A stretch of 64,000 nucleotides of DNA from Haliotis asinina. Lineage: Eukaryota; Mollusca; Gastropoda; Lepetellida; Haliotidae. This document shows positions 11,150-60,479 of this stretch, in pieces. Position 1 is the first letter of the stretch, and each line of letters opens with the position of its first letter. The position numbers were made by a program, and so were the translations under genes. The stretch is taken from the NCBI RefSeq assembly GCF_037392515.1, contig NC_090281.1, positions 51,624,753 through 51,688,752 on the forward strand. Reading direction: 5' to 3'. Below the pieces are notes generated by a model. That model made no database searches. It was not told where the DNA came from and was given only the letters and a program-made list of their open reading frames with translations.

Positions 11150-14100
11150 TTAATACTGCGGAGTTGGGCATTCACGGGCGAAATGGCCTTCTGTGCCGCA
11201 CTGAAAGCAAGCATTGTTGCGATGGCGTTGGGCTGAAAATAGAAGTTAAACAATAATTCACAGGAGTAATTCAGACAAGATGAGGCCTGTTGTGTGGGAG
11301 AAATGCCAGTACCATAATTCTCTTATTTGTTACTCTACAGACTTCACTTTAGTAAGATAAACATAGTATGATCTACTTTCCAGTACATGGATTTGGTGTG
11401 GTTTCATATTTCTGAAATGACAGACGCATTAGCAAAATTGTACAATAACCCAGCTAACAGGGATTGATTAAGTACTTAACACCAAAAAATGTTACAAATC
11501 AGGGTTTCAGACAAGCTTTTAAGGTTTACGTGTGTGGGTACAGTACACAATGTTTTTGTTCTTTGGTGAGTGAGTGTGAGTTTAGTTTACGCCGCACTCA
11601 GCAATATTCCAGCTATATGGCAGTGGTCTGTAAATATTTGAGTCTGGACCAGACAATCCAGTGATCAACAACATGAGCAAGTCAGTGACTCTGACACCTG
11701 ATCCCATTAGTTGCCTCTTACAACAAGCATAGTCGCCTTTTATGGCAAGCATGGGTTGCTGAAGGCCTATTCTACTCTGTGATCTTGACGGGTCTTTTGA
11801 TCTTTGGAACAAGTATTATGAATGTTGAATGAGTATTTCTTTTTCTGTTACCCACTGCTTAAGAATGTGTATTTCAGTGATTTATACTCGCTTAAGTATA
11901 TGTCACTGAGTAAGTTTACTAAGCAGATTTATACTGCCTTATGTTCTACCTAATCAAAACCAACTTTAATATAATGGAAACAAATTCATAAAAAAATCCA
12001 CCTATCCTGTTCTACAGAACACTAGTTCTTCACTAGTGAAAGGACTAGTTTTCTAGCACCATGTGATATTTAATCAAAACAAACTTAAATATAATGGAAA
12101 CAAATTCATAAAAAAATATCCACCAATCCTGTACCAAGAGAACACTAGTCCTTTACTAGTGAAAGGACTAGTTTGCACTAATGCAAGCTCCTACATATCT
12201 TTGCACTGACTAAAGAAACCATTAAGGTCACTGTCTTGTGAAGTACTGCCATTTTCACTGTACTTGTTGCTTACTTTTTAGTGCATGTGAAGCCTATAAA
12301 TATATTCTGTATGCATATGCTTCAAAATATTTGTGTATCTAACATTCAAGAGAGAAATTATTACGCAGCAAATTTTTTAAAAAAAACAATTGCTAATTCT
12401 CTATGCATGTACATGAACTACCAGGACACCAAGCTCATCTCGATCTCTGACACATTATGCATCTTATCGCAACACCTCAACAAAAGAAAGAATAAAAGGA
12501 TTACAAAACTTTACTCACGGCCATTTCTGTCACGTGGCTCTTCCACTTCCCTTATCAATGCTTCTGCTGCTTGTCTGTTTTGACTATCTCCGGACAACTG
12601 GATTCGTACCCTTCCACCTTCTGCCTGGTCACTGAATACCTTAAAATAATGTTAGGACATAATCAGAAACAAGTTTCATAACAATTACTTGGCAAGTACT
12701 GTTTATGCTCATTACATCATTCATTCGAACCGAATCAAAAAACAAAAGTCACTTGGTTGACTCATCATATAGCTGAAGTCAGCACTTTTCTTAAAATTCA
12801 AATGATCACTTAAAATGTGTGATGGAAGGTAACACTTAGATACAGTGAACTAATCAATTTAGAAATATCAATTATGCTCAAAATGTCAACATCAAACAAA
12901 TTTAAAATAACTCAGTACTATTAATTCTAAAAACCAACACACTGAAACAATAATTTACATTTAGCATCAATTCCTTTTCAATTGGGTATTCTTACTATAA
13001 TTTATTCATTATATTTTTATATTGAAGTGAAAATTTTATAATTACAATAACATTAAAAATATTGAGACATTTAAAATACTATTTGGAATGGAAATTACTC
13101 TAATAATAAAACTTTGATGAAAGCATTACTTATGTATAATATACTATGAATAATAAAGGGGATTCCATCATTCGTTGTGCCAGTCATGTGCTATTAACGT
13201 ATAACACATGGCATACCTCATAGTTGCATCCCAAAAAAGCCCTCCAAAATTCCTGTAGTTCAACATACTTTAATCAAAGCTCCACTTTGGTCCTGCATAT
13301 CACGAATTCTCTGACCCCTTTTCCCTGCAAAGGTAACAGACACTTACAAAATGAAAGTAAATCTGTAATAATATCAAAGTGTGTCGAGTGCTGTTTGCCA
13401 CCTTTTTTAATAACAATTTTCATGGGGATTACCATTACTGTTTTTTTCCATATCATGAGTGGCATAAAATCCATCCATAACTTCTTGGCTGGGACTATGC
13501 ATGCTGGGAACTGACAATCTGAGATCATCACTTGTCAGTTCACTGCCATGTGTTATTTGGTGGCTGAATCTGAATATTTGAGAACTGATGTGTGTCAACG
13601 AAAACAGCAAATATGACCACCTCATCCCATCAGTCGCCTCTATAAGACAAGCATGGATTACTGAAGATCAATTTTAACCTGAATCTTCACATGTAGATAG
13701 GTACACTGACTACATTAAAACATATGCATTGGGGTGCGAGCCACAGCTAATAATGGCACAATGAGATGAAAATATTTCACTTGTAATTATGCTCTCTTTT
13801 GGAGTCACTGGTGGATACTATATATTGTCCCAGCCCTATGAGCATCAAGTAAAACTTCTGATACTTTCCAACCTGTGTACAAGAACATAACATGCGAGAT
13901 AAAACATTAAGGAACTTAATAGTCAAACATCTTGAATTCACCAATCATGTACCCGAGTTTTTACACCAATTCACAAAGTGAAAATTAGTTTTCTAATCAT
14001 AAAACACTGATTAATATCAATGAGTGAAAAATATAAAAGCAAGCTTTTTTACTTACTTCATAATGACACATTTTACATTAAGAGACCCTCTCCTCCCCAC

Positions 14101-19254: not shown

Positions 19255-19990
19255 AAGCTAAGATATTCGTGCAGTTCATTACATGCGGACCCTTTTCATG
19301 TTAATTTGTCAAAGAGTAACGCTTGTTATTGTGGTGCTCCAGTGAAAGATGCAAACTATTTATTTTTAAAATGTCCAAAATTTGTCAGCTGCCGTTTTGA
19401 TCTGAAGCTGAAGCAACTGTTACTTGGTGGGATATATAAAGGTATGAGTGTAACCGAAGTAACTATTACTTGATGAGATATATAAAAGTATCAGTGTGGC
19501 CGAAGTAACTATTACTTGATGGGATATATAAAAGTATCAGTGTGGCCGAAGTAACTGTTACTTGATGGGATATATGAAAGTATCAGTCTGGTTGAAGTAA
19601 CTGTTACTTGATGGGATATATAAAAGTATCAGTGTAGCCGAAGTAACTATTACTTGATTGGATATACAAAAGTATCAGTGTAGCCGAAATAACTATTACT
19701 TGATGGGATATATAAAAGTATCAGAGTAGCCGAAGTAACTATTACTTGATGGGATATATAAAAGTATCAGTCTGGTTGAAGTAACTGTTACTTGGTGGGA
19801 TATATAAAAGTATCAGCGAAGCCGAAGTAACTATTACTTGGGAAAGGCAGGGGCCATAGGCCATTTTGCACGTTGGAATGAAAAATGGCCTGTTAAAATT
19901 TTGAAGTTTGCTATTGATACAGGGGCATTGGTGAAACTTAATCCGATTACTCCGGATTGCCTGACCGGACAAGTGGGACGACCCCGATGA
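19255..19990 (+). mobile_element. LINE ORF 3' end, split by an internal minisatellite
   Basis: Upstream of the array (about 19258-19430) one frame reads CSSLHADPFHVNLSKSNA, then a CYCG...C knuckle and YLFLKCP, as at the C-terminus of non-LTR retrotransposon proteins. After the array (19833-19990) a 50-codon frame reads YLGKAGAIGHFARWNEKWPV and ends GRPR-stop at 19988. The two pieces look like one LINE C-terminal region with a 46-bp unit of its own sequence amplified between them. RT and endonuclease are absent. Confidence 0.65.
19421..19840. repeat. 46-bp minisatellite, about 9 copies
   Basis: The unit runs from CTTGATGGGATATATAAAAG through TATCAGTGTGGCCGAAGTAA to CTATTA. The first unit still carries LINE codons (LLGGIYKGMSVTEV). 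Units differ at a few positions (TGTGGCC versus TCTGGTT). Confidence 0.9.
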
Positions 19991-20026
19991 GTAATCGAGT
20001 AACTTTTGCGATGTGTGATTTAACAG

Positions 20027-20250
20027 TGTCAGCGTGGACCAAATAAGTATTACGGAGTGTGATGTCAGCGTGGACCAAATAAGTATTACGGAGTGTGATG
20101 TCAGCGTGGACCAAATAAGTATTACGGAGTGTGATGTCAGCGTGGACCAAATAAGTATTACGGAGTGTGATGTCAGCGTGAACCAAATAAGTATTACGGA
20201 GTGTGATGTCAGCGTGGACCAAATAAGTATTACGGAGTGTGATGTCAGCG
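20027..20250. repeat. 36-bp minisatellite, about 6 copies
   Basis: The unit runs TCAGCGTGGACCAAATAAGT then ATTACGGAGTGTGATG, nearly identical between copies with one GGACC-to-GAACC variant. Because 36 is a multiple of three, both strands stay open (12-residue repeats), which I take as an artefact of periodicity. Confidence 0.95.
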
Positions 20251-20663
20251 TTGATAATCCTTTTTTTCTTGCACAGTTGGCTGGCCTTACGCAATAAAAG
20301 TGTTATTAATGCATTTAGGGTCACAGCTTGACCGGCCCGTCCTTTGTGAAGTTACCGGCCACCTGACATTTGAGGATCGCTCTAAGCGAATTCCAGCGTC
20401 AGTAGAATTCGGTCGATTGTGTGACTACTCAACCTGAACTATTACTAAGGCTAGTTTTGAGACAATGGCTAATTAATCAAACCCAGTGCAGTGTCACCAT
20501 GTGAGTTCAGCTTGTACAATTACCTACTGTATGCTAAGTGGCGCGTATGACAATGGACCTAAACAACTTGACTTGTAAACCGTTCTGTTACCAGTTAGCA
20601 TGCGCATTTGCCAATCCATGTCATTGTTGACTGGGCTTCATCGGTATACGACCTGATGTTCTC

Positions 20664-20905: not shown

Positions 20906-21343
20906 TAAACTAGAGATCGAAAACCATGAAATCCACGCCAACGTTATACATGGAGAAACAGGCGTGAAGTTGCAACCCAATTACCACGGAGGCCTAAAAA
21001 CAAAAATACGAAAAAAGTCCCAAACAATAAAAATAAACATAACTCGTTAAAACATCGAGGCCTCTATTGTTTCACCACGTGCAAGGAATACCCGGATGTT
21101 TTTTTCTAATCCTCTAATCAGAAATCGTGATACACAGCAACATATTGTTCACCGTGCTTTCGACCTGTGGTTTACTTGGTCAGATAGAGAACGAACTTTG
21201 TCTTGTTTTCTTATTTATTTTTTTAGCTACTTGCAATTTATTATCAACACACATGTTATCTGCAACTTTAAACCATCACACATTGTACATATCCCATAGG
21301 ACAATATATGACGCATCTCGTCAGTTATAACAATCACAATCAG

Positions 21344-23155
21344 CTACCAAACACCAGCATCACTGAGCTCCTGTATATAGTTAAGAATAACGTTGGCCTT
21401 CAAGACATTCACTCCCAACGCATAATGTGTCCCATCAAAGCTTCGCACGCCCTCCGTCATGTTAAATGTCTTTAAAACAGGTATCTCATACTCCTTGAGA
21501 AACTTCTCCATGTCTCGATTAAATCGAAGGACGTGTGGTTTGGACTGGGTATCTGAACGTTTCATAATTCCTGGAGCATTCATGTCAACAAATAATACCT
21601 TTGGCCAGAGAATGCCAATCTTTCGTAACCTGTCCAGAGTGGGCTTTAGATATCGCATCTGAACGTTACTCGAGTTATAATTTTCATGAATACCTATACC
21701 AACTACGAACAAGGTCCTCCGGTCAGCTAAGCCTTCTGTGACGTCATGGATCAGTTCTGTCCAGCGTCTACTGACGTAGTGTTTCTTCCAGCTGATCTTC
21801 ACCCTGCCTCTGCATATATTCGTTGGGTTTGCATCCAGTCGTCTTCTGCAGTTTCTTTCCTCGTACATGTTCATCCCCGAGCATTTAGATTTCCAAACTG
21901 AAATTGTGAAAAGGCCATTGAAAACATTTTTCTGGTTCTAATTTAGAAATGATTGTTTGACGCCGCAGCAACACTCCAACTATATACCGGCGGTCATATT
22001 TATAACCGAATTTGGACCAGACATTCCAGTGAGCATCAGCATCTATATACGCAGTTGGAATACGATGACCTGTGCCATCAACGTTATGCAGCCTGACCAT
22101 TTGGTCCTGTTACTCGCCTGTAAGACTGGCACGGGATGCTGAAGACCAGTTGCTAACCCGCAAGTAGCTGTTATTTTGACGATCAGTCAAGACAAGTCAG
22201 GGGCATTTGGAGGAGAGTAAGCTAAAGATGTAACTTAAGCGGGTGACGAAAAGGTGGATGATTTATATAATCTTAATATAACAATGGAAGTACTTTCACA
22301 GTTTCGACCCTCAGTGAGGGCCACAGAAATATCTATAAGTTGAAGAAAAGACATCCGAACAAAAGGACTATGACGGTAATTTTTTCAGTATATATGTGCA
22401 GAACCCTGTCGCTTTTAATCCTGTGCACTCTCAAGTTGCATTGCCAACCCTGTCGGATAATACGTACTTTTGGATTCTGTTGGTCTAACGCCGCCATCTT
22501 TGAAGTTTCCTCGAACAGTCATCAGAAAGCCTGTGTAAATGTGCCGTATGAGGGAATCTCCAATGAAGCGGATGGTTCCTCCGTCCAACAAGTGGCAGGC
22601 CTGATTGGCATTATATTGTTGTGGCCGACATCGGGGATCGGAGGGGGTCCAGGTGGAATATTCTGCATGAATCTGCTGTCGGATATCCCAACAATTTTTA
22701 CACCGACATTGGGCTTCTGTCTTTTTCACACACTTGAAGTTGTAGCAGCAAGGGGTCGGCCCTGTGGGACTGCAAATCGCTCGAAGGAAAGTCGTCACGT
22801 TTGTGTAGCCTACGTTGCCGCATCGATTGTCAGGTCTCTGGAGGGATTTGGGTACTCCTTTGTGGTTCAAGGCCATGTGATAAAACCATTCGGAATGTTT
22901 CGCTTGAGCCTGTGTAAGCTTTTTTGTTCTCCAATGACCCTGGGTCATGTTTTGCAGAACGCTTGGACACCTAGATACATAATTGTCAACTCTTGTTGGA
23001 GAAGGGGGGTGAAATGCTGTATTTTTGGAGTCCAGAGTTATCTCCAAGTTTCTGATGGGTTTGAAATGAGAGCTGATATATCCCATTACAAACAAAGTTA
23101 TGCCAAATGTTGTCACTAGCATGACACGGAATGAAGAAGTGTGTCGTTTGATCAT
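21344..23155 (-). CDS. SGNH/PC-esterase-like type II membrane protein, copy A (413 aa, 2 exons)
   Basis: Exons 23155-22468 (688 nt, donor GTACGT) and 21897-21344 (554 nt, acceptor AATTTCAG) join in phase 1 to a 413-codon frame. The start was set at ATG 23155 because the encoded MIKRH...SFRVMLV aligns with copies B and C; the upstream in-frame extension has no counterpart. A short cytoplasmic tail is followed by a signal anchor (about residues 12-30). A CPSVLQNMTQGHW block leads into a Cys-rich segment (CCYNFKC, CRCKNC), then GDS with Ser201 (FIGDSLIRHIY), GIGIHEN near 296-302 and FDGTHYALG with Asp384/His387. GDS plus DxxH is the SGNH/PC-esterase catalytic pattern of CASD1- and TBL-type O-acyl enzymes. 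A Golgi sugar O-acetyl role is inference. Nearly identical to copy B in most of exon 2. Confidence 0.85.
21950..22166 (-). mobile_element. SINE-A copy in the intron of SGNH copy A
   Basis: TTTGACGCCGCAGCAACACT, TTTGGACCAGACATTCCAGT, CAGCCTGACCATTTGGTCCT and GGCACGGGATGCTGAAGACC follow SINE-A order. It is moderately diverged. Copies B and C lack it at this place, so it inserted after duplication or was lost there. Confidence 0.75.
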
Positions 23156-23211
23156 GTTAGCAGAACCAAGAGCTTTCCAAGGAATACGGACTGCCCACAA
23201 TACGGCACATC

Positions 23212-23219
23212 TATTTATA
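23212..23219 (-). promoter_or_regulatory. Candidate TATA box of SGNH copy A
   Basis: On the minus strand TATAAATA lies 57 nt upstream of the ATG at 23155. A start site about 30 nt downstream would give a 5' UTR of roughly 25-30 nt. No comparable box is seen ahead of copies B and C. Confidence 0.4.
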
Positions 23220-23245
23220 TCTAAACTGTTAAGATAATCTCCCAA

Positions 23246-23679
23246 TTAGCTTTTACCTGGAAAGTACTGCTACAAGTGTCGTTACTTAATTTGCAACGCA
23301 AACCCAATTGTTTCCAAAGGTAATTGAATTAATTTGGGGGATAAAAACAATGCAGTCTGTCGGCTTCTCTTTAAAGAGGCGTGTATGTAGCTGTCAAAAC
23401 ATCGCTAGAAACACAAACCAATCTCTACGTTATTAAAATGTCAAAAGAGAAATCGCTCTGTCACCCCGTGTTATTGTTCCTATTTACTGTCAACAAAATA
23501 TCTCAAACAAGTATGCTTCAGACACACCTGGAAAGGCATTATGTACAGTCGGTTAGGGAGCAATTAGTGCTAAAATCCGGCAACAATAGCATGCGCCACC
23601 AAACTCACTGTCTGTCAACTAACCTGCCAAGCACGAGTAATAATAGTTGCTTCTGTAAGGTTCATGAATATCTATGTTC

Positions 23680-23680
<1 letters not shown>
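23246..23680. other. Upstream flank of copy A, no feature seen
   Basis: AT-rich intergenic sequence; no repeat or gene recognised. Confidence 0.3.
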
Positions 23681-23748
<68 letters not shown>

Positions 23749-23773
23749 TATTTAAATGACCCCAAGTAATGAA

Positions 23774-23866
<93 letters not shown>

Positions 23867-23903
23867 ATATATATATATATTTATTCCTTGGGGTCATTTG
23901 AAT
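23681..23903. repeat. (CA)n - (GT)n(GTCT)n(TA)n block with flanking inverted repeat
   Basis: About 33 CA units (23683-23748) precede a 27-bp spacer, then GT units (23779-23822), TGTC/GTCT units (23822-23866) and TA units to 23880. The spacer motif AAATGACCCCAAG is repeated inverted at 23887-23900 (CTTGGGGTCATTT), so the block can fold into a large hairpin. Confidence 0.9.
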
Positions 23904-24019
23904 AAGTTCATGTCTTTTGGTAAAATGGATCAAGGGATTACTATCCACACTGTTTTTTTGTGACAAGGTGTTTCAGCGAAAAAGAAATGAACTGTAATGT
24001 TATGTTATGAATACATAAT

Positions 24020-24100
24020 TTTCTCTACACGACGTTTCAGAGCTAATTCACCTGATGAGGGAGCAAGAATTAGCTCTTGAACGTCGTGCTGAGAATATAA
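24020..24100. repeat. Strong 22-bp-arm hairpin, Penelope-like-element-associated motif
   Basis: CACGACGTTTCAGAGCTAAT(TC) at 24028-24050 and its near-inverse at 24067-24089 flank CACCTGATGAGGGAGCAAG. The CTGATGA ... GAAAC parts match the core of hammerhead ribozymes and the ACGTTTC...CATCAGG signature at 51035-51065. I read it as a Penelope-like remnant, inferred from motif memory. Confidence 0.5.
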
Positions 24101-24119
24101 AAGTTGTTATCCATAAAAC

Positions 24120-26990
24120 GTGTCATGTATTCATGTTTGTCCGACTTCGAGATGCCTTTAAAACGTTTGATTAATAGTATGTTAGGCTTGCAGTGAAACA
24201 ACTTTGTCACCTCAAAACTTAAAGAGAGTTTTCATTCTTTACTATTTATTCCGACTTAGGAAGACAGCTTGTGAAATGTGCAGGATACGCCCATAATCAG
24301 GAGATCACCAATCATCATCACTAATTGTTTGTGATTTCTAAACGCATTTTCTCATGATATAGTCAAAGAGCTTTTCTTGACAGCAACGGTTATGCTTGCA
24401 CGTTAACTCAATTAGTCATGTGTCATATTTATGTTTTATGTATAAATTTGTCGGACATGACTGAGCAGTGTGGTAGCTCTGTAAAAGAGTTCGCTCGTCA
24501 CGACGACAAAACAACACCAAACCAAGTAGCCTGATCTTTAAAAACTTTAAAACTTTAAACGTTTGTAATAGTGTATAAAGATGATCAGAAAAATGTTGCA
24601 AGCTGTCAAATACTCTTAATCTTTACTTCCAGACTTCCCATTTATATACTGAAGCAATTCTCGATTTTCCACGTCATTCATTCCCGTTTGAGACTTGAGC
24701 GTGGCGATTCCCTCAGATTTGAAAGATATATTTTAGATAAGGTTGTTTGTTTGGGTAGCTACCAGACTTTCTTCAAGTTTCCCTTTCTTGTTGATTCTAG
24801 TATTTTATCAATACAAGAAGTACTATATACTTCTATTTGAAAGGGTAGGGTCTAAATTCAGTACTGTATAGGATATACATGAAAATTACATGAATTAATT
24901 GATCAATTAAGCGGATCTGCCAATCTTGTATCTATCTGCAACGGGATAAAAACCTGTGCATGACGCCACCAATAGATCAGACAGATTTATCGATTTGTAT
25001 AATTCGTTTTAGTGTTAGATGATATGCTTATACTTTCCCTTACACTTTCCCTATACTTTCCCTTACGACTTTTGGAAGTTATCGACAAATTTGCTATCAC
25101 ATAATACACTTGACAGTATATATAGTTGTTATTAGCAGTAATATATGTTATTACTTTTTGCCATTTTACATTTGCCGTGAAATATATAGTGTTTCATACA
25201 ACAATGAACATAGTGAAAGTGTAAGGGTCAGCAGTAGAGACATCTTCCTGTAAGTAATCAAACATACAGTATTGATATGTGTTCATATTTATATACTATT
25301 TGTTTTCCTGATCGATGTCACCTAATGTATTGGTGTGCTATATTTTGATATGATGTGCTGAATGAAGGAATTGTATACGATCATCTTTTTTCTACTTTCA
25401 TATACATACCTGTGACTCGAATACATCGATAAGGCGAATTTATTACTCGGTCCCCAGCGATTCGACTCATCAGGGATCTGACTGCTACTTTGGAAAATAT
25501 AATGGGCGTGATACATAAGCACTTTTCCAGAAAGTTGATTTGAGTTGGGTTTTAAGTCTCATACTCATTCTTTCAACTACTTTTAATTTATATTCTCATT
25601 GACATCGATAGTTTAACAATGTTACAGAAGCATCTGAGTGAGATTTGCATTTGCGTTTAAGGTCGACCAAGGCGCCCTTCTGTCCATCGTACCAATTACC
25701 ACACAAGGTAAGTCTTTTGAAATAACCGGAATCCACCTCTATTTTGACAAACATCTCGGTTTCAACGAGGCATGCTCTTAATCAAACGTCCAATTTTTAA
25801 ATGTTCATATCATCCCATTCTTCATGGCAAGACGGGCGGTGCCGTGTTCGTTGAGAATGATCTGCGTTGATGAAGGTGGCGTACGCGCCGTCCAAGGATA
25901 TTACTGACATGTTTTTTTTTCTGTTTGCTGATGATCTTGGCAATATTTCTTAAAGTTTGAATAATGTACGGAACAGTAAATGGGTAAGAATATTTTATTA
26001 TAAGCACAATTTCCCACTGTATACATTATTTCTCACTAATCGGATGGCCCGAGTCTGTTTGTGCGGATCTGATCAGGGCACTTGAATGTCAAGGTCACTT
26101 ATGGCCGACAAGTGAGTAGGATTGCCGGCGATTTGGGGAAAATGCTTGCTTACTGTCGAGAAAATTACATGTTGATGTTGAAAGAAGTTTTCCGACCCGC
26201 GGAATGCCGCAGCCAATCGAATCCAGCCCAACGCTGGTGCTGTGAACGTGACTGGAATTAATAAACGAATTTAAAAGGTGAGTTTTCGCCGTATTGGATG
26301 ATCCATGATTTTTCAGTGAAATTGCGGAGGTAGCTGTTTTCGATGGTTCGTGGCGTATAACATTTGAAATAACGATCCGATTGTGATCATCTATAGCTCA
26401 TTTTGTAGGGAAATTATCTGGCTTTCGACCCGTTTGGCTTGACGGCCTTAAACATATATTTTACGCGATGACATGTAATTTTGATGGAGGAGAGGGTGGT
26501 TTCTTTGTAACATCCCTTTCCTTTTATATAGTACTAGGGTAGGGTCTATACACCAATATGTCTTTCGAGCGCCGTTTGTAAGCGATACAAGCTCCTGTGG
26601 CAGTGACCAAGACAAATGACGAGGAAACTGGGGGCTGTCCTTTTCCTGTTTTGACTTACATTACGAACACCTGCACAACCTGCTAGGATCATACCGAACG
26701 ACCATGACATTGTTTCATCTTTACAACACTATGCACTCAATATTCCAAGTACAACTCACCTAGTATGCAGTTATGCAAACGTACGGTAACATATGGGCAA
26801 ACACTTCATTCTGTGTACAAGACGTGTGCTCAAGCGTCGAAATTATCACGTGACCAGATCAGATACACTGTGTCATGTAAAGCGATACATCATGGCGACC
26901 AGGTCAAGTCGACCCTCATACATTCGTCCTCGCAAGTTATACGCCATTTGACAGAAATACATTTGAAGCCAATGTAATCTACAATTTTAC
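24120..26990. other. Intergenic region between SGNH copies A and B
   Basis: Mostly AT-rich with no recognised gene. A short GTTCGCTCGTCACGAC match near 24490 is a probable SINE-B crumb. Near 26180-26278 a CG-richer stretch ends at a good donor (AAAAG|GTGAGT), a candidate non-coding first exon on the plus strand. A second donor-like CAAG|GTAAGT occurs at about 25709. Neither is supported by a coding frame. Confidence 0.25.
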
Positions 26991-27035
26991 AGCACCACAA
27001 AACTTACATATTCCACACGACAATACAAGACCCAG

Positions 27036-28743
27036 CTACCAAACACCAGTATCACTGAGCTCCTGTATATAGTTCAAGAGAATGTTGGCCTTCACGACAT
27101 TCACTCCCAACGCATAATGTGTCCCATCAAAGCTTCGCACGCCCTCCGTCATGTTAAATGTCTTTAAAACAGGTATCTCATACTCCTTGAGAAACTTCTC
27201 CATGTCTCGATTAAATCGAAGGACGTGTGGTTTGGACTGGGTATCTGAACGTTTCATAATTCCTGGAGCATTCATGTCAACAAATAATACCTTTGGCCAG
27301 AGAATGCCAATCTTTCGTAACCTGTCCAGAGTTGGCTTTAGATATCGCATCTGAACGTTACTCGAGTTATAATTTTCATGAATACCTATACCAACTACGA
27401 ACAAGGTCCTCCGGTCAGCTAAGCCTTCTGTGACGTCATGGATCAGTTCTGTCCAGCGTCTACTGACGTAGTGTTTCTTCCAGCTGATCTTCACCCTGCC
27501 TCTGCATATATTCGTTGGATTTGCATCCAGTCGTTTTCTGCAGTATTTTTCCTCGTACATGTTCATCCCCGAGCATTTAGATTTCAATACTGAAAATGGT
27601 AAAGAGGGCTTTACAAAACATTGACCTGTATGTATGACTATACAGTGTAATCACGAGATGCAGAACATTTTCCTCATATTTGAATTTAGATGTGCTAGGA
27701 TATGACACGATGTTGGTGATGAAATTTTAAACTTTGTGGATGAACATCTTCTTTATCCGGGTGATGAGGCGTTTCGATACAGATTCTTGTATCGCTATCA
27801 AGCAAGTGTATGCTTGTTTTCAAGATGCACCATTGAAGAATAGGGTTTCATTATTTAGTTCATTTAAGCGACAGTTAGGAACAAGCAGTCACACCACTTA
27901 AAAGCAAGTGAACACTAATATCTGCAACAAAAAGCTGACTAAAAGAATTCGATACATCCACTTTACTGCGATTAAGAAAATACTTACTGTACTCCTGCCC
28001 CCCTAATCCCATAAACACACAACTTAAATAGACAACCCTGTCGGATAATACGTACTTTTGGATTCTGTTGGTTTAACACCGCCATCTTTGAAGTTTCCTC
28101 GAACAGTCATCAGAAAGCCTGTGTAAATGTGCCGCACGAGGGAATCTCCAATGAAGCGGATGGTTCCGCCATCCAGCAAGTGGCAGGCTTGATTGGCACT
28201 ATATTGTTGTGGCCGACATCGGGGATCGGAGGGGGTCCAGGTGGAATATTCTGCATGAATCTGCTGACGGATATCCCAACAATTTTTACACCGACATTGG
28301 GCTTCTGTCTTTTTCACACACTTGAAGTTGTAGCAGCAAGGGGTCCGCCCTGTGGGACTGCAAATCGCTCGAAGGAAAGTCGTCACGTTTGTGTAGCCTA
28401 CGTTGCCGCATCGATTGTCAGGCCTCTGGAGGGATTTGGGTACTCCTTTGTGGTTCAAGGCCATGTAATAAAAGGATTCTGACTGTCCTTTTTGAGCCTG
28501 GGTAAGCTTTCTCGTCCTCCAGTGACCCTGGGTCATGTTTTGCAGAACGCTTGGACATCTGGATTCATAATTGTCAACTCTTATGGGATCAGGGTGCTGA
28601 TATTCTGTATTTTTGGAGTCCAATGCTACCTCTAAATCTTTGATTGGCTGAAAGTGTGAGCTGATATAACCCATTACAAACAGAATCACGCCAAATACAG
28701 TGACAAGCATGCCTCTGAATGAGGCAGCGTATCTTGTTGTCAT
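27036..28743 (-). CDS. SGNH/PC-esterase-like type II membrane protein, copy B (413 aa, 2 exons)
   Basis: Exons 28743-28056 (688 nt, donor GTACGT) and 27589-27036 (554 nt, acceptor CATTTTCAG) give 413 codons, the same phases and lengths as copy A. The start is ATG 28743. Signal anchor at about residues 12-30 (MLVTVFGVILFVMGYISS); Cys-rich segment about 108-165 with RCGNVGYTN, CCYNFKC and CRCKNC; IHAEYSTWTPSDPRC; GDS Ser201; GIGIHEN 296-302; DGTH 384-387. All expected SGNH residues are present, so it should be catalytically competent if expressed. The family is that of PC-esterase/CASD1-like O-acyl transferases or esterases of secretory compartments; the substrate is unknown. N-terminal half resembles copy C, exon 2 core is nearly identical to copy A. 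Confidence 0.87.
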
Positions 28744-29232
28744 TATTACAATGTAAGAAAGCTATCTCGAAGGTAAAGGGAGACAATCTCGTCCTGTGCT
28801 CTCTTGCAAATTATGAATCGTTGAAGTTTCGTTACACCCGGCCAAATCCTCTTCTGCTCAACTTTACATGTGATGATTTCGTCAGGACCAAAGAAGGGTT
28901 TTACCTAATCTTCACGTCATTCTCCATTCACTTTTCCCGAGGCAGTATGCTGCTACGACACAGCTGAAAAAGAAGATTAAAATTTCCTTTGACTGGTCTT
29001 GCATGTATTTGTGACAGGTGCCACAGTTTTTGACAGGGTACTGTTTGCGATCACTGTTTCAAAGTGCTTCATTAATACTACTCATAATAGAGACCGATTC
29101 GCTTTAAGTAGAGGTTTCTGGTTTATGAACATGGAAAGGGCTTTGTCCCGTCATTTACAACGGTATAGTTAACTGTAAAGAAGCAAGGACATGCCTACAA
29201 CATAATCATAAAGAATGGCGGCGCATATGCGT

Positions 29233-29292
29233 AAGTGAGTTTCGCTTTACGCCGATTTAAATAGTATTCGAGCACTATAACGGCGGGGGTAG
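29233..29292 (-). mobile_element. SINE-B 3' fragment
   Basis: GTGAGTTTCGCTTTACGCCG, then a diverged TATTCGAGCACTATAACGGC, matches the tail end of SINE-B in reverse orientation. Confidence 0.55.
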
Positions 29293-29336
29293 TGTCTCAC
29301 TAGAGGAGATCAGAGGGCGCATGTTTTGTGACAGTT

Positions 29337-29692
29337 GGGTGGATTGGCTCATTGCTTAACGCCACACTCCGCAATATTCCATCTATGTGGCCGCCATGGG
29401 CGGAGGATCCAGCCTTTTGAAAAAGGGGGGTGGGGGTGCAATTTTGTCATTTTTATCTTCAATGGGAGGGCGGGTGTCATGGGCGGATCCCCCCTCCCTT
29501 TCTGGATCCGTCACTGGCTGCGTTCCGTCAATAATCAAGTCTGGACAATTCAGTGATCAACAGCGATCTACGCAAGTGGGACACCACGGCATATGTCAAC
29601 TAAGTTAGCGAGTCTGACTACCCGATCCCGTTGGTTGCTTTTCACGACAAGCACGGGTTGCAAAAGGGTAATTTCAACCCGGATCTTCACGG
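29337..29692 (-). mobile_element. SINE-A copy carrying a nested MITE
   Basis: The outer parts are SINE-A: ACGCCACACTCCGCAATATT at the start, then after the insert AATCAAGTCTGGACAATTCA, CTACCCGATCCCGTTGGTTG and GATCTTCACGGGTG. About 128 bp of unrelated sequence interrupts it. Confidence 0.8.
29394..29521. mobile_element. hAT-like MITE inserted in SINE-A
   Basis: The ends carry inverted GGATCCAG (left GGCGGAGGATCCAG, right CTGGATCCGTCACTG), and inverse pairs of GGCGGATCC occur inside. CAGTGRCGGATCC-type termini are familiar from hAT MITEs. The flanking octamers TGGCCGCC and TGGCTGCG are only 6/8 alike, so the target duplication is unproven. Confidence 0.55.
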
Positions 29693-29699
29693 GTGTGTG

Positions 29700-31290
29700 G
29701 GGAAGGTAGTCCTTATATGTTTCTGGGTTGCGTGTTAACATGCAAGTTGTGAGTCACAGCAATGTTGTTTGATCAAAACATAACACCTAGTGTTATCTAG
29801 CTGAAATTTTATAACATTCTTTTTTTTTCTGGCAAAACGCCATGATGAAGCTTGAATATTTAACGAACATGTCTGGCCCGCATGAAGTCAGTCCACATCC
29901 TTACGTGGTCCTACTGTGCTCCGTCTAGTGGCGAATAGGATCTGTTTTGTTGGGCAATCGGTTTAGATTATATAACCAAACAGAAGTATATCCTTATCTA
30001 ATGTGTAAGAATGATCCTCAACCACCCACTGCTTCACATACAGCAACGGTCTAAGTCTGTCCCTTTTTCAATGTAATAGGCGTTTCATTGGTCATATTGG
30101 TCGTACATCTAACGACAAATACATGAAAAAACCAACCGTTTTACATCGTCTTAATGTTTAGAATGATGTTTCAGCATATTGTATTCGGCCAAAACTTGGT
30201 ATTCGTTTCCAGTGGCGTTCTAGATGTGAAATATTAATTCAATTCAAATGATTCATTCCAGTTTTTAAGATATGACATACCCTTTTGTTTGAAGGGATTA
30301 GTATGTCAGCAAATCACAAGTATGCGAGAGACTGTTGTATGAGGCAATATATTCATGTTTTATCACAATCTTTTATGTATCTGAACCTTGCACATCACGG
30401 TACCATTGTATGTTTGTCCCGAAATAGGCTAGTATCTCGGACAACCCCATCGGAACAAAACTGGTTTGTGTCTTTGTCTTTGTTACTATAGCGACTTCCA
30501 ACATTCGTAACTACTCATGTCATCCAGGCAAGCCGGATGGCGTTCTTCTTGTAGGTCACGGAAAGAGGCGAGTAATTACGAATGCTGCTTGCAATTAACC
30601 CAACACCAGGGCCGATTACACACACCCAGATCCGTCACACATAGCAAACGACTGCCTCTGATACGTCAATTCCATTCAATACAATTCATTACTCGAAACA
30701 CCACCAACGGTGGTACATGAGAATACAAAATTACTATATTCAAACAAATTAACTTGTAAAGATGGCAGGTAAAAGCCAAAATGAATTAAAAGTTAATGTA
30801 CCTTTGTGGACTCAAATATTACATTGATATACATAGCAAGATTTCTAAGATAGCATGCTTGTTTACACGAGAACAGTTTGACGACTTTCCGCAAGATGGA
30901 GGCTGCATGAGAATTACATACATTACACATACGATATTCTCTAGGAACATTTGCCCGACGGCCAACTTCAATAGTGAGATGGTGACTACTTGTTTTGAAT
31001 CTTAAAATCGGGGAAAAGATGATTGGGAAAATATAAATCTGTCAAATTCTATGTTGGTTTCTAAGATATGATGAAAAGCAGATCTGGAGCTCAGTATCAC
31101 TGAGGTATGGCCGATTCACTGGATCAAATGACATATAGTCGTAGTAGACTCGAACTGACGTGTCCTCGTCGATATATGTTAATTGAAAAAATAATAACAC
31201 GAATACATTCAAAGACCATATAATATACAATTATACAGCAACACAAAACGTATATATCCCACACGACAATATGTTGTCAGGTTTAACTAT
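29700..31290. other. Intergenic region between SGNH copies B and C
   Basis: No gene recognised. A 15-bp inverted repeat (CATTCGTAACTACTC at about 30502 and GAGTAATTACGAATG at about 30569) may be a small foldback. The 62-codon minus frame at 31042-31230 has no known match and is probably chance. The 31200-31290 part is homologous to the 3' flank of copy B (shared CCCACACGACAATA). Confidence 0.3.
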
Positions 31291-31299
31291 CACAATCAG

Positions 31300-32512
31300 C
31301 TACCAAACACCAGCATCACTGAGCTCCTGTATATAGTTAAGAATAACGTTGGCCTTAACGACATTCACTCCCAACGCATAATGTGTCCCATCAAAGCTTC
31401 GCACGTCCTCCGTCATGTTAAATGTCTTTAAAACAGGTACCTCATACTCCTTGAGAAACTTCTCCATGTCTCGATTAAAAAGAAGGACGTTTGATTTTGA
31501 CTGGGTATCTGAACGTTTCATAATTCCTGGAGCATCCATGTCAACAAATAATACCTTTGGCCAGAGAATGCCAATCTTTCGTAGCCTGTCCAGAGTTGGC
31601 TTTAGATACTGTATCTGAACATTAGTCGAGTTGTAATCTTCACGAATGTCTATACCAACTACGAACAAGGTCTTCCGGGTATTTAAGCTGGCAGTAACCT
31701 CACCGATCAGTTGTGGCAGGTTTTTATTCAAATTGAGCTTCACCCTGCCTTTACATATATTCGGCCTTGTGTCCAATCGTCCCAAACACGCTGTTTGTGT
31801 GAACATGTTCATCCCAGAGCATATTTTCTTCCACACTGGAACATGGCAAAGAGGGCAGTTCAAATATTGTTTGGTTTCTTTGATTAAATACTTGTGTGGC
31901 ATCTCCATGGATATTTTTTTTATGTAAAATATTGACCTACAAATTTTCTTCATAACATCACCATTTTCGTACAAATAATTATAACTTTATCGGAAAAGTA
32001 ATCACTTATATCAGCAATGACATGATGGATTAATGATTGAAAATACATACTTTACCGCTATTACGCAGATTCTTACCTCTGGTGTCGCTGGGTCTAATGC
32101 CGCCATCTTTGAAGTTGCCCCGGACAGACATCAGGAAGGCTATGTAAATGTGTTGCAAGAGAGAATCTCCAATGAAGCGGATGGTTCCGCCATCCAGCAA
32201 GTGGCAGGCCTGACTGGCATTATATTGTTGTGGCCGACATCGGGGATCGGATGGGGTCCAGGTAGGAATATTCTGTCCAGGTGCCATCCAGTGACCTTGT
32301 GTCATCTTCTGCAGAACGCTTGGACAGCTGGATTCATAATTGTCAACTCTTATGGGATCAGGGTGCTGATATTCTGTATTTTTGGAGTCCAATGCTAGCT
32401 CAAAGTCTTTGATTGGCTGAAAATGTGAGCTGATATAACCCATTACAAATAGCGTTGTGCCAAACGCTACCGCTACCATGACAAGGAATAATGCACTCTG
32501 ACTGGTTGTCAT
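31300..32512 (-). CDS. SGNH/PC-esterase-like protein, copy C, lacking the Cys-rich module (323 aa, 2 exons)
   Basis: Exons 32512-32077 (436 nt, strong donor GTAAGA) and 31835-31300 (536 nt, acceptor GTTCCAG) join in phase 1 to an open 323-codon frame ending with the family's SDAGVW. Start ATG 32512. It keeps the signal anchor, CPSVLQKMTQGHW, TWTPSDPRC, GDS (FIGDSLLQHIY), the region around GIDIREDYNS (copies A and B have GIGIHENYNS) and FDGTHYALG. Relative to A and B it lacks 84 residues between GHW and TWTPSDPRC, which hold most of the CCYNFKC/CRCKNC cysteines, plus six residues in exon 2. Both changes keep the frame. It may be a functional shortened paralogue or an early pseudogene; the open frame and intact splice sites favour the former. 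Confidence 0.8.
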
Positions 32513-32519
32513 GGTTACA

Positions 32520-33841
32520 ATGCCACGCTAATGTTAAACATGTAGCGAATCACGGAGAAGGAATACTGATGACGGAAACTGAAGTTGTTTTGCAAATTGT
32601 GGATCACTCATTAATTGCTTCTTGATTTGACCGGCACCTCTTATCTTCATAATGATCTGTTGTGTGTTTGCACAAGACTATGATTGCAATCGGCCTTTGA
32701 TGCATCACTGACTGGACATTCCTCACTCATGAAACTGAAAAAACAGTTAAAGTTTCCTTTAATCAATTTACGTTTCTCGTAACCACCACTAACACGAAAG
32801 AGTCAGTTTTCGCAACAATACGTGATTGGACACTCCATGTCGCTGTGTGTCAAATGCTCACTATTATGAGTTTTAACAATTTTATGTTCTTTACAAAGCA
32901 GTTTAACAAAAGATTTTTGACACCCCCTAACCACCCAAAAGAAGAAAATCAAAACAAAACAAAAAAAACGAAAAATATACAACGTAAAAAACAAAAGAAA
33001 CAACAAACAAACAGGAAAAAAACCCAACAAGGTTCAGTGGTACAGATACAACAGCGAGATTTTAATGTTAGTACATTTACAGAAGATTATTTCATATTGT
33101 TCAAGCGATAAGTAGCAATGCATCGTACTCATGTCGTACATACACTTCTACAACGATAGAGTAGCCCTATTTGTGGCAGATATCATGCAAAAGTAGACTT
33201 GTTATGTGAATACTATAACCTTAAAAAATATACCTGACCTGTAATGCTACACGTAGACTAGTCTGTCCATGGAAGTTGACAAAGCCACACTTTGTGTGGA
33301 TTCCGATACCAGATGGACTGACTCCACAACCTAAACCTGTTTCACCACGAAAGACTAATGTCAAATACAACATGTGGCATCGCTTACAAAATCAGGTGTC
33401 ATTTGTCAAAAACATAATATATGGCCATTTCAAACATGCTAGACGATGATAGGAATAGATTTATCGTTCTTGTTATCAATTATTTGCACAAGGAAAGAAT
33501 TCGTGCGGACAGTTGGGCCATCCCACCGGTCCTTTCCTTGTCGCTTTTTAACCAAAGACTGGTTAAATTCAGTTCAGATTATCTGAAAAGGTACTTGCCA
33601 TGCGTTATTTGACAGACTAACATATAAAGACGAGGCACTGCCCTAGAAATGTAACAATGGACATTTTGTAAACTACTGTAAATATTCCTAAAATTATCCT
33701 CGAATAAGATTTCGCACAGTGAAAGTTGTAGCTTGAAGAGACTGTCTGTTTGAAGCGAGAGGGCAGACGGGAGTGTCATTCATTTCTTTTTTAATGAAAA
33801 TGAGCACGGATATTGCGCTGAAAACCCGAGAAATCAGAACT
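32520..33841. other. Upstream flank of SGNH copy C
   Basis: No gene recognised. An A-rich simple stretch lies at 32935-33020 (AAAACAAAAAAAACG type). The rest is ordinary AT-rich sequence. Confidence 0.3.
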
Positions 33842-33978
33842 AAGGTGGGATTTGAATAATATCGTACACCCAGAGGACACGGCGAATTTGGGCACCATAG
33901 GAGATTCACGGTTGGCACCGTGACTACACAAGAGATCATTGACGTCATCATGTTTGTTTCCTTTGCATTCTGCGTAAA

Positions 33979-34148
33979 TTGAGTGAGCGAGTGAGTTTGG
34001 TTTTACGCCGCTTTTAGCAATATTCCAGCTATATCACGGCGGGGGTCACCAGAAAATGGGCCTCACACATTGTACCCATGTGGGGAATCGAACCCGGGTC
34101 TTCGGCGTGACGAGCGAACGCTTTAACCACTGGGCTACCCCACCGCCC
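33979..34148 (-). mobile_element. SINE-B, full-length tRNA-derived copy (unit 1)
   Basis: On the minus strand it begins GGGCGGTGGGGTAGCCCAGT, has an A-box-like TAGCCCAGTGG, a B-box GGTTCGATTCC and ends in the TTGCTAAAAGCGGCG tail with ACTC repeats. It is flanked by a perfect 13-bp duplication CATTCTGCGTAAA (33966-33978 and 34149-34161), so it inserted by retroposition. Confidence 0.92.
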
Positions 34149-34305
34149 CATTCTGCGTAAAAGTACATAAGGTGGGATTTGAATAATATCGTACACCCAG
34201 AGGACACGGCGAATTTGCGCACCATAGGAGATTCACGGTTGGCACCGTGACTACACAAGAGATCATTGACGTCATCATGTTTGTTTCCTTTGCATTCTGC
34301 GTAAA

Positions 34306-34475
34306 TTGAGTGAGTGAGTGAGTTTGGTTTTACGCCGCTTTTAGCAATATTCCAGCTATATCACGGCGGGGGTCACCAGAAAATGGGCCTCACACATTGT
34401 ACCCATGTGGGGAATCGAACCCGGGTCTTCGGCGTGATGAGCGAACGCTTTAACCACTGGGCTACCCCACCGCCC
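34306..34475 (-). mobile_element. SINE-B (unit 2 of the triplication)
   Basis: Nearly identical to the copy at 33979 (one GACGAG to GATGAG change), with the same flanks. It was multiplied by tandem duplication, not by new insertion. Confidence 0.92.
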
Positions 34476-34632
34476 CATTCTGCGTAAAAGTACATAAGGT
34501 GGGATTTGAATATATATCGTACACCCAGAGGACACGGCGAATTTGGGCACCATAGGAGATTCACGGTTGGCACCGTGACTACACAAGAGATCATTGACGT
34601 CATCATGTTTGTTTCCTTTGCATTCTGCGTAA

Positions 34633-34803
34633 ATTGAGTGAGTGAGTGAGTTTGGTTTTACGCCGCTTTTAGCAATATTCCAGCTATATCACGGCGGGGG
34701 TCACCAGAAAATGGGCCTCACACATTGTACCCATGTGGGGAATCGAACCCGGGTCTTCGGCGTGACGAGCGAACGCTTTAACCACTGGGCTACCCCACCG
34801 CCC
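34633..34803 (-). mobile_element. SINE-B (unit 3 of the triplication)
   Basis: Nearly identical to units 1 and 2. Its right-hand target duplication is absent because the array ends at this SINE. Confidence 0.92.
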
Positions 34804-35372: not shown

Positions 35373-36669
35373 CAGTGTTCCCAGAAATTATTGACAAAAT
35401 CTTTGTTTTTTTTCCTAATGATGCTAAGATTGGAAAAAGGGCTTTCACTATGCACTAAGCATACTAAATAAGGGAGACAACTCTTGAAGGCTTAGAAGGC
35501 AGCTCATTACGTCAAGACTTATCTCCCTTGTCTGAGCAGACGGCTTCCTGTGTTGACATGGCAGAATTTACAGCAAGAGAGAAAAGAAAGCTCATTCTAG
35601 ATGATTTTGAAAGGGGTGAGGCTGATGCTAAAGTGTTAGCTTGTAGACATGGTATTCCTCTGTCTACAGTATACAGAACTTTGAAGAATATTCAAACAGG
35701 AACCGGGATAGAGCACAAAGCAGTGGCAGGTCGGCCTAAGAAATTCAGTGTTGTGGATCGCCGAAGACTTGGGCAGATTGTGAGTAGGGGCAAATTGAAA
35801 AGTGTTGAGAACATCAGAAATGAAATGATTAGCAGAGGAAGTCCACAGGTATGCAATGAAACATTTAGGCAGGAATTACAGAGACTTAATTGGGTGAAAA
35901 AACGTGGAATTCTCTCGCCGTTGATGAAAGATGCACAAAAGGAAAAACGATTAAACTGGTGTCGGGCTCATGAAAATCAAGATTGGGATAATGTTTTCTT
36001 TTCGGATGAAAGTTCTGTTTGGCTTTTCCCTAATTGTGTGAAAATTTGGACCAAAGATACTGTCAAACCTGTCTACCAGCGACCAAAACATAGCCCGAAG
36101 TTTCACATGTGGGGTGGCATATCGGCTCGCGGAGTGACGCCATTGTGTGTTTTCACGGGAAACTTGACAAAAGAAAGATACGTTGACATTCTAAATGGTC
36201 ACCTTCTTCCGACAGCACAAACATTGTATGAAGATGATTGGATTTTCCAGCATGATAATGACCCAAAACACACTGCGCGCTACACAAAACAGTGGTTGTC
36301 GGGCGAAAATGTTCACGTTTTAGACTGGCCCAGTTACAGCCCAGACCTAAACCCAATTGAGAATGTGTGGGGAGTCATGAAGGGCAGAATAAACCAAAAG
36401 GGACTGAGAAATATTGAAGATATGAAGGCCGAGGTGGTCCAATATTGGGATACCCTGTCACACGATTACCTACAAACTTTGATGGGTAGTGTGCCTAGGC
36501 GTATTCAGGCATGCATTCTGAGCGAGGAGGTCAAACAAAGTACTAAAACAAGAGTGAGACTGTAAAAGGATGATGTTTTAACATGTTTATGTAAGTAAAA
36601 CGCCAGAAGTTAATAAACGTAATGAGTTACATGACGCAAAATGATTCTCAATAATTTCTGGGAATACTA
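35373..36669 (+). mobile_element. Tc1-like transposon, apparently complete (1297 bp)
   Basis: Terminal inverted repeats of about 28 bp (CAGTGTTCCCAGAAATTATT... left; inverse TAGTATTCCCAGAAATTATT right) enclose one transposase gene. The TA target duplications are at 35371-35372 and 36670-36671. The length is typical of Tc1. With an open transposase and well-matched ends it looks young and may be mobile; only expression or polymorphism data could show that. Confidence 0.95.
35558..36565 (+). CDS. Tc1-type DD34E transposase (335 aa)
   Basis: Start set at the ATG at 35558 (MAEFTAREKRK); the frame extends upstream only through a non-ATG codon. The N-terminal helix-turn-helix (about residues 5-55) resembles a paired-type DNA-binding domain and is followed by a GRPKK hook near residue 69. 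The catalytic DDE domain has FFSDES, FQHDNDPKHTA and SYSPDLNPIENVW; 34 residues separate the second Asp from the Glu, the DD34E spacing of the Tc1 family. It binds the element's inverted repeats and catalyses cut-and-paste transposition into TA. No stops or frameshifts are present. A poly(A) signal (AATAAA) follows near 36612 inside the element. Confidence 0.95.
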   Translation: MAEFTAREKRKLILDDFERGEADAKVLACRHGIPLSTVYRTLKNIQTGTGIEHKAVAGRPKKFSVVDRRRLGQIVSRGKLKSVENIRNEMISRGSPQVCNETFRQELQRLNWVKKRGILSPLMKDAQKEKRLNWCRAHENQDWDNVFFSDESSVWLFPNCVKIWTKDTVKPVYQRPKHSPKFHMWGGISARGVTPLCVFTGNLTKERYVDILNGHLLPTAQTLYEDDWIFQHDNDPKHTARYTKQWLSGENVHVLDWPSYSPDLNPIENVWGVMKGRINQKGLRNIEDMKAEVVQYWDTLSHDYLQTLMGSVPRRIQACILSEEVKQSTKTRVRL

Positions 36670-44928: not shown

Positions 44929-54578
<9,650 letters not shown>

Positions 54579-57732: not shown

Positions 57733-60252
57733 TTACTGAAGTGTCAAAGAAAAGACAGTAAATAAAAGTGCAATCAATGGGATTTGACTGTCGACCGAGG
57801 CTGAGCTTGGGGAGGCAACCGGCTCCCCGATAATATCGGGAATATCTTTGTTCCAAAACTTCATGTCATCCGGTCTAAGGTCAGACTTCATTACGGAAGT
57901 GGAGTCAAGGTAAAGATATCTTCTTTCAGAGGCTGTGAATGGCTCCCATATGACTCCGCCAACTTCAGTAGGTGTGGGGTTCCTGAAACGGTTAAGTAAA
58001 TGATGCTTTTACGCCGGCGTCTGACCCTTCAAGACATACCGAACGTAAGAAAGTATACACGTGTTTGATCATATTTATAACAATGAAACAAAAAATAATT
58101 GTTATTTAATAATGATGTAAGGGCATTAGAGTAGCACCTTACGTTGCAGTGTTTGTGCAACTGTTTACAAGCGATAGTTTGGTGTAATTTTTTTTCCACT
58201 GTAAACCTTTCCCCGGTTTAAGAGGTTGCAACGATCTACGTCCTCAAAGTGTAGACTATCACCCACGTCACAAAATGCTGTCCCAAGAATCTCAACAGTT
58301 TCTTCTTGTGACAAGAAGGGGACAGTGTTGAGCTATCCTGCCCCCGATTTTCAAAGGCAATAGTTTCAGTAAAACTCTGACAAGTGTTGCGATATTTCTG
58401 CTAAATGTTGAATGGAATTGAATACAATTCTAAGCATGTCATTCATTTGAAAATTACCGTCTTCTTAGAGATACAGAAACGAAACAAACTTCCTCCGTCC
58501 GTGGTGACTGCCACAATGCCGGTGTTATTGAACAAGGCACTAATGTGTCAGAATCAACCGACATCCTTGACTGAATGTCCAGTTTGTAACCACACCTTTT
58601 ACCCACATCGATGACGCAATTTGAAATACTTGATATAGATCACTAATTCACGTTGTCTTATATGAATGAACATATATCACTAACTCACATCGTCTTCCAT
58701 CAGTGAACACAATCACTAACTCACATCGTCTTCTATGAGGGAACTTAGATCACTAACTCAGATCGTCTTCTATGAGTGAACATAGATCACTAACTCACAT
58801 CGTCTTCTATCAGTGAACATAGATCACTAACTCACATCGTGTTCTATCAGTGAACATAGATCACTAACTCACATCGTCTTCTATGAGGGAACTTAGATCA
58901 CTAACTCAGATCGTCTTCTATGAGTGAACACAGATCACTAACTCACATCGTCTTCTATCAGTGAACATAGATCACTAACTCAGATCGTCTTCTATGAGTG
59001 AACATAGATCACTAACTCACATCGTCTTCTATCAGTGAACATAGATCACTAACTCAGATCGTCTTCTATGAGTGAACATAGATCACTAACTCACATCGTC
59101 TTCTATCAGTGAACTTAGATCACTAACTCAGATCGTCTTCTATGAGTGAACATAGATCACTAACTCACATCGTCTTCTATGAGTGAACATAGATCACTAA
59201 CTCACATCGTCTTCTATCAGTGAACACAGATCACTAACTCAGATCGTCTTCTATGAGTGAACATAGATCACTAACTCAGATCGTCTTCTATGAGTGAACA
59301 TAGATCACTAACTCACATCGTCTTCTATCAGTGAACATAGATCGCTAACTCACATCTTCTTCTATGAGTGAACATAGATCACTAACTCACATCGTCTTCT
59401 ATCAGTGAACATAGATCACTAACTCACATCGTCTTCTATCAGTGAATATAGATCACTAACTCACATCGTCTTCTATCAGTGAACTTAGATCACTAACTCA
59501 GATCGTCTTCTATGAGTGAACATAGATCACTAACTCACATCGTGTTCTATCAGTGAACATAGATCACTAACTCAGATCGTCTTCTATCAGTGAACATAGA
59601 TCACTAACTCACATCGTCTTCTATCAGTGAACTTAGATCACTAACTCACATCGTCTTCTATCAGTGAACATAGATCACTAACTCAGATCGTCTTCTATCA
59701 GTGAACTTAGATCACTAACTCACATCGTCTTCTATGAGTGAACATAGATCACTAACTCACATCGTCTTCTATCAGTGAACATAGATCACTAACTCAGATC
59801 GTCTTCTATGAGTGAACATAGATCACTAACTCACATCTTCTTCTATGAGTGAACATAGATCACTAACTCACATCGTCTTCTATCAGTGAACATAGATCAC
59901 TAACTCACATCTTCTTCTATGAGTGAACAGAGATCGCTAACATCGTCTTCTATGAGTGAACATAAACCACTATCTCACGTCGTCTTCTGCTACGGGAACA
60001 CGCCTCATGAAGTCAGAGCCTTCCACTTAGGAATGCCAGCGTTTTGTAACCGTGGAAATGAATATGTTGAGGAAATAATGAAAGACAGAACGTACCCGTA
60101 TTTGACAAAATTGACGGTCATGTTCATGACGACTCGACTGAATTCCTTGTCTGCTTCAGTCCAACTCCATGTCCATCTCCAGCTGTAACCCCCTGGCCCA
60201 ATAATGGGCACGCCGAACGTGTACAAGAGAAGTCCGATATTGTGGCTTGTAC
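57733..60252 (-). CDS. Carboxylesterase/cholinesterase-family protein, gene 2 (last two exons, partial)
   Basis: Two exons homologous to exons 9 and 10 of gene 1: 60252-60096 (acceptor CATACAG, donor GTACGT) and 57982-57733 (acceptor GTTTCAG, stop TAA at 57735). Phases match those of gene 1 exactly. The first encodes GTSH, carrying the catalytic-His position, then YTFGVPIIG, a WRWTWSWT insert and NFVKYG. The second encodes NPTPTEVGGVIWEPFT, YLYLDSTSVMKSDLRPDDMKFW and a Ser-rich spacer ending in a hydrophobic IPLIALLFTVFSLTLQ tail. That tail resembles a GPI-anchor signal, so this enzyme is likely attached to the cell surface, unlike gene 1. Upstream exons must lie right of the window, beyond the 73-bp satellite. 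Confidence 0.87.
58630..59990. repeat. 37-bp minisatellite, about 36 copies, in the last intron of gene 2
   Basis: The unit is GTGAACATAGATCACTAACT followed by CACATCGTCTTCTATCA. Alternating variants CACATCG/CAGATCG, ATGAGTG/ATCAGTG and CATAG/CTTAG are mixed along the array. It ends about 105 bp from the penultimate exon. Confidence 0.96.
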
Positions 60253-60479
60253 CTGTATGCAGAGGCGACATTAGAACTCGTGTAGTTGAAAACAAATTCT
60301 GACGTAAATATAAAACACTAACGCTCGAGAATTATTAGTTTCGACTATCTGCCGCAGGAGACTGGGTGTAAAGAGGAAAATAGTGATGAAGAACTACTTT
60401 AAGAGAACTCCGAAAATCAGTGACGAGCCCAAGAAAGTTCCGGATTAAACATGATTTTAAGAAGAAATTTTCAGCGACA

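Follow-up and report, generated by a model that had tools for sequence, protein, structure and literature searches.

Three tandem, probably NXPE-like genes of Haliotis asinina form a patchwork best explained by exon-limited gene conversion

A stretch of 64,000 nucleotides of the Haliotis asinina genome (contig NC_090281.1; hereafter the window) contains three neighboring genes whose resemblance to one another appears to change from one part of the gene to the next. The question that this locus raises is whether the copies have exchanged sequence since they were duplicated. The genes, which we call A, B and C, form a head-to-tail tandem array on the minus strand at 21344-32512, a span that runs exactly from the stop codon of A to the start codon of C; all gene parts given below lie on this strand.

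We built the three gene models on open frames and splice motifs. Each gene consists of two exons separated by one phase-1 GT-AG intron and ends in a TAG stop, and the reading frames of all three are open, with predicted proteins of 413 (A), 413 (B) and 323 (C) amino acids. Exon 1 of A (22468..23155) encodes the putative anchor, a Cys-rich module and the GDS motif, and exon 2, which includes the stop codon, encodes DGTH (21344..21897). The modeled exons of B are at 28056..28743 (exon 1) and 27036..27589 (exon 2 with the stop). Exon 1 of C (32077..32512) is 252 nt shorter than those of A and B, and in the alignment its exon 2 with the stop (31300..31835) is six residues shorter, in two gaps. A hydrophobic N-terminal stretch in each of the three proteins fits a candidate membrane anchor.

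The preliminary description had labeled the products PC-esterases. The motifs agree with this label, as all three copies do have GDS, encoded in exon 1 (its serine is S201 in A), and the DxxH motif DGTH, encoded in exon 2, but the profile matches are weak. Against Pfam NXPE4_C, A (E = 0.0098, 15.9 bits) and B (E = 0.016, 15.3 bits) matched nearly the whole profile below its curated cut-off of 27 bits, and neither C nor the two reversed and two shuffled controls gave a match. These matches emerged only for the domain spanning both exons: when full-length proteins were used, one of the three matched (E = 0.081), and Pfam searches with the six separate exon frames gave no esterase match. The best match of an exon frame, to an IFT121 zinc finger in the frame with exon 2 of C (E = 0.0029), was below cut-off and was rejected, and the single match from a PDB sequence search (E = 0.56) was regarded as chance. 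Structures predicted with the exons folded apart had mean pLDDT values of 37.6 and 36.1, unusable for judging the fold. The Cys-rich module of A and B matched no family above cut-off. Taking the motifs and profile matches together, the trio is probably NXPE-like; we take FAM55 and NXPE to be the same family.

According to PMC2824669, the usual block III motif is missing from PC-esterases, where W/H takes its place, and the standard profiles of that time missed most of them; a massive expansion of the Fam55 subfamily is also reported there, both in amphioxus and in the snail Lottia gigantea. For human NXPE1, PMC12216134 reports that sialic acid O-acetylation requires the serine of GDS and the aspartate of DXXH. 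The trio resembles the Fam55/NXPE PC-esterases of these two sources in having GDS, DxxH and a candidate N-terminal hydrophobic anchor, and A and B resemble them further in matching NXPE4_C, weakly, over the full domain. On the other hand, A and B carry the Cys-rich module as an addition and C lacks a profile match.

In a three-way DNA alignment viewed in 60-column windows, the pairwise relationship of the copies shifts along the genes, in keeping with the patchwork noted earlier. All three pairs are diverged in codons 1-20 (dS 0.51-1.06). In codons 21-61 A stands apart, with a dS of 0.135 for B-C compared to 0.83 for A-B and 0.63 for A-C. The peptides TEYQHPDP and HFQPIKD are, as had been noted, found in B and C and absent from A; however, the stretch common to B and C is not an N-terminal half as claimed, but only codons ~21-68, about 41-50 codons. 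The longest B=C identity is 70 nt in the membrane stalk (28559..28628 in B and 32328..32397 in C).

Further along exon 1, A and B differ in codons 77-93 (dS 0.69) and are nearly the same in codons 94-166 (dS 0.044), where a tract of 199 nt with two mismatches covers most of the Cys-rich module (22680..22878 in A and 28268..28466 in B). In codons 230-256 the A-B dS is 0.14, and C is distant from both A (1.26) and B (1.35). In codons 257-394 the A-B dS is 0.011 and C differs from A and B by 0.17 and 0.15. The A=B tract in exon 2 (21404..21826 in A and 27096..27518 in B) has 423 nt, made up of identical runs of 237 nt and 185 nt with a single mismatch between them. The near-identity of A and B over exon 2 holds, with 8 residue differences in 184 (given earlier as seven in about 176), and across codons 312-398 the three copies hardly differ (249 of 261 columns alike). 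In codons 399-410 B is the odd copy. The 3' end of A does match C, over 68 identical nucleotides that cross the stop codon and extend 11 nt past it (21333..21400 in A and 31289..31356 in C), and TTAAGAATAACGTTGG at this end is common to A and C while B has a different sequence.

If one tree described the whole gene, the shares of sites at which A, B or C is the odd one out would be constant along it. Among the 192 variable sites, 182 were two-state, and their odd-one-out order fell into 58 runs, where shuffling gave 93 on average (p = 5e-5, 20,000 shuffles). With synonymous sites only (n = 43), 16 runs were found as against 25 after shuffling (p = 0.0015, 20,000 shuffles). Twelve of the 182 sites fell in columns misaligned inside the deletion of C, and without them the codon-block run test on 170 sites gave p = 5e-5. 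The counts of A-, B- and C-odd sites were 30, 14 and 19 in codons 1-76; 4, 4 and 19 in codons 168-229; 1, 2 and 69 in codons 230-394; and 1, 6 and 1 in codons 395-413. These shares varied by region, with a permutation p of 5e-5 for four bins drawn by structure and again for ten equal bins; the synonymous-only values were 1e-4 and 6.5e-4, respectively. Permutation therefore rejects a single constant relationship along the trio, also with synonymous sites alone. The segments used for dS were picked after inspection of the data, whereas the ten equal bins were not.

Synonymous differences between A and B were found at 13 of 26 sites in codons 21-61 compared to 4 of 132 in codons 193-394 (Fisher p = 4.7e-9), and the shifts in A-C and B-C synonymous rates between the same segments were not significant (p = 0.053 and 0.29). 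Hidden Markov models with one to five states gave BIC values of 1451.2, 1393.9, 1392.8, 1426.8 and 1504.9, which makes the patchwork clear but leaves it uncertain whether more than two states are needed. At the 3' end, the tract common to A and C contains six B-odd sites, and the longest B-odd run was significant with all sites (p = 4e-4) and not with synonymous sites alone, of which there were only two (p = 0.40).

The noncoding sequences tell of other relationships. Between the introns of A and B, clear alignment is confined to the initial 52 nt (41 of 52 identical), and the score of the remainder, 212.5, is only marginally higher than the best of 300 shuffles, 208. The B and C introns, aligned globally, scored above shuffles (155 against a maximum of 135 in 300), while the whole introns of A and C showed no similarity above them (115.5 against a maximum of 129.5). 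The intron of B (27590..28055) reads as 52 A-like nucleotides followed by a stretch like the C intron (59 of 78 identical), the latter being the best-aligning stretch by choice. Some similarity is present in all pairs over the last 120 nt of the intron, where 0, 1 and 1 of 300 shuffles reached the observed score. In the 5' flanks none of the three pairs scored above 200 shuffles; in the 3' flanks all three did, B-C most strongly (59 of 70). The divergence of introns and flanks implies that the copies are old and that the identity of the A and B exons is younger than the duplication.

The best explanation, and in our judgment a highly probable one, is exon-limited interlocus gene conversion among three old tandem NXPE/FAM55-like copies. 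Conversion between neighbors, as the preliminary description had proposed, is well supported, since the relationship changes along the gene at synonymous sites while clear alignment is lost over the 5' flanks and the greater part of the intron. By interlocus gene conversion, short stretches would have been exchanged among the three copies; copying would have taken place where they still matched, in the exons and some tens of bases outside them, and would have halted in the diverged introns and flanks. The similarity of A and B is clear only to shortly past the exon edges, and the identity of A and C spans the stop codon. In B, A would have overwritten the 3' portion of exon 1 together with the greater part of exon 2; a shorter exchange linking the 3' ends of A and C could have run in either direction, and C would have lost its Cys-rich module then or earlier.

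For the main A-B exchange, we think it reasonably likely that A was the donor and B the recipient, judging from three sequences and no outgroup. B and C appear to be the closer pair by descent, as they are more alike in the intron interior and the 3' flank. The stalk, intron interior and 3' flank join B with C, and exon 2 of B is A-like; at its start, B and C are more diverged (dS 1.35, dN 0.43) than in their best intron stretch, and this favors the direction from A to B. The intron of B may also hold, 68 nt in, a C-type donor relic, although a deletion in C explains this equally well.

Our first idea had been a recent duplication of the whole gene that produced A and B, followed by faster evolution outside the conserved domain. 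The two proteins are equal in length and 91% identical, as such an origin would predict; however, comparison of dS, introns and flanks speaks against it and we dropped it as extremely unlikely. Synonymous differences jump along with the others, B is near C at codons 21-61, and a recent whole-gene duplication does not explain the identity of A and B, given how little of their introns and 5' flanks can still be aligned with clarity. Hybrid genes arising by unequal crossing-over or chimeric duplication, with no conversion, are very unlikely. A crossover inside a gene likewise switches the relationship, and copies in direct tandem orientation favor such events, but each gene shows several switches and a diverged intron lies between the two A=B exon stretches, so that this route would call for more than one crossover, with deletions afterwards. 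Another possibility is that the contig was collapsed or chimeric through an assembly error, since short reads can mix up near-identical stretches such as those of 423 nt. This is highly unlikely as each copy has separate flanks and introns and keeps open frames, and the window contains no N.

Copy C requires separate comment. Where A and B have about 92 codons, C has about 8 (32264..32287), with CAGAATATTCC kept and the frame shifted. The shortfall, between GHW and TWTP, is a net 252 nt and removes the Cys-rich module; CAGAATATTCC is read in the shifted frame at the junction and one extra base before ACCTGG restores the frame. This frame-shifted junction suggests that C is a derived copy. In addition, the GIGIH segment, which by our placement may represent a putative catalytic block III, has His in A and B (H300) and Arg in C (GIDIR). 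It had been argued that, with GDS and DGTH kept, selection on catalysis persists. This is too simple: conversion could itself spread the 3' part of the domain, and C is without the Cys-rich module and has Arg in place of the His of GIGIH. C may encode an enzyme that is altered or inactive; the two motifs by themselves are not enough to decide the matter. In every pair, dN is lower than dS across the full alignment (0.050 and 0.168 for A-B, 0.144 and 0.334 for A-C, 0.138 and 0.290 for B-C).

It could be speculated that the trio is a small diversifying set of enzymes that modify surface glycans, in which conversion keeps the 3' catalytic part common while the stalk and the Cys-rich module are free to differ, and in which C, without the module and possibly inactive or re-purposed, is kept open by selection and conversion. 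We consider this full scenario rather unlikely.

A similar mosaic of high and low divergence due to gene conversion is described in PMC3728101 for the paralogs GOT1Sd/GOT1Sr and GOT1p1/GOT1p2 of the copepod Tigriopus californicus. As in the trio, conversion between GOT1Sd and GOT1Sr is there reported to be largely restricted to exons, with the intron largely unalignable. In contrast to the trio, with its three open frames, one copy of that pair is described as decaying. The Tigriopus work also concerned another gene family and used several populations and GENECONV, while ours is based on three copies in one sequence. Literature on gene conversion in Haliotis tandem genes included, by title, nothing on an NXPE/esterase-like family. 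The trio is a clear but ordinary case of gene conversion; the pattern has been published and knowledge of the mechanism is unchanged. Its value is as a compact case where exon-limited conversion is separable from descent, because the relationships kept in the intron interior and flanks are not those of the exons, and as a warning that whole-gene trees mislead for such tandem families. Other clusters may show the same pattern, given the massive expansion of Fam55 reported for a snail in PMC2824669.

Searches of the window beyond the trio by tblastn (E up to 1) returned only 60464-60601 (E = 0.045) and 12492-12620 (E = 0.25-0.35), and shorter words added 57802-58087 (E = 0.014; rows in 21-29 and 31-32 kb left out). 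None of these was taken as a further copy: the 12.5 kb stretch has stops and, by eye, no further similarity, and the one at 60 kb has a carboxylesterase-like piece close by. COesterase pieces were found at 52315-52647 (minus strand, E = 2.1e-14, above the Pfam cut-off) and 60077-60247 (minus strand, E = 0.0078, below it). Rfam and ARAGORN gave no matches.

In the 600 nt downstream of the stop codons, A has two occurrences of AATAAA or ATTAAA whereas B and C have none, so that B and C may rely on other signals or on longer 3' ends. Several repeats adjoin the genes. Just past the 3' end of A, at 19406-20251, are adjoining minisatellites (46 bp in 9.5 copies and 36 bp in 6.2 copies); between A and B, at 23683-23866, a long (AC)n is followed by a TG/TGTC repeat, jointly an inverted simple repeat; and just upstream of C, at 33841-34803, a 327-bp unit is repeated in tandem 2.9 times with 99% matches. 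At 46215-46766 (minus strand), an open frame of 184 codons encodes a Cys/His-containing repeat, and the repetition probably accounts for the TBCC and zinc-finger matches of this frame. Finally, an open frame of 365 codons at 35468-36565 (plus strand) matched DDE_3 above cut-off (E = 7.3e-19) and HTH_Tnp_Tc3_2 below cut-off, and is predicted to encode a Tc1/mariner-like transposase with no internal stops.
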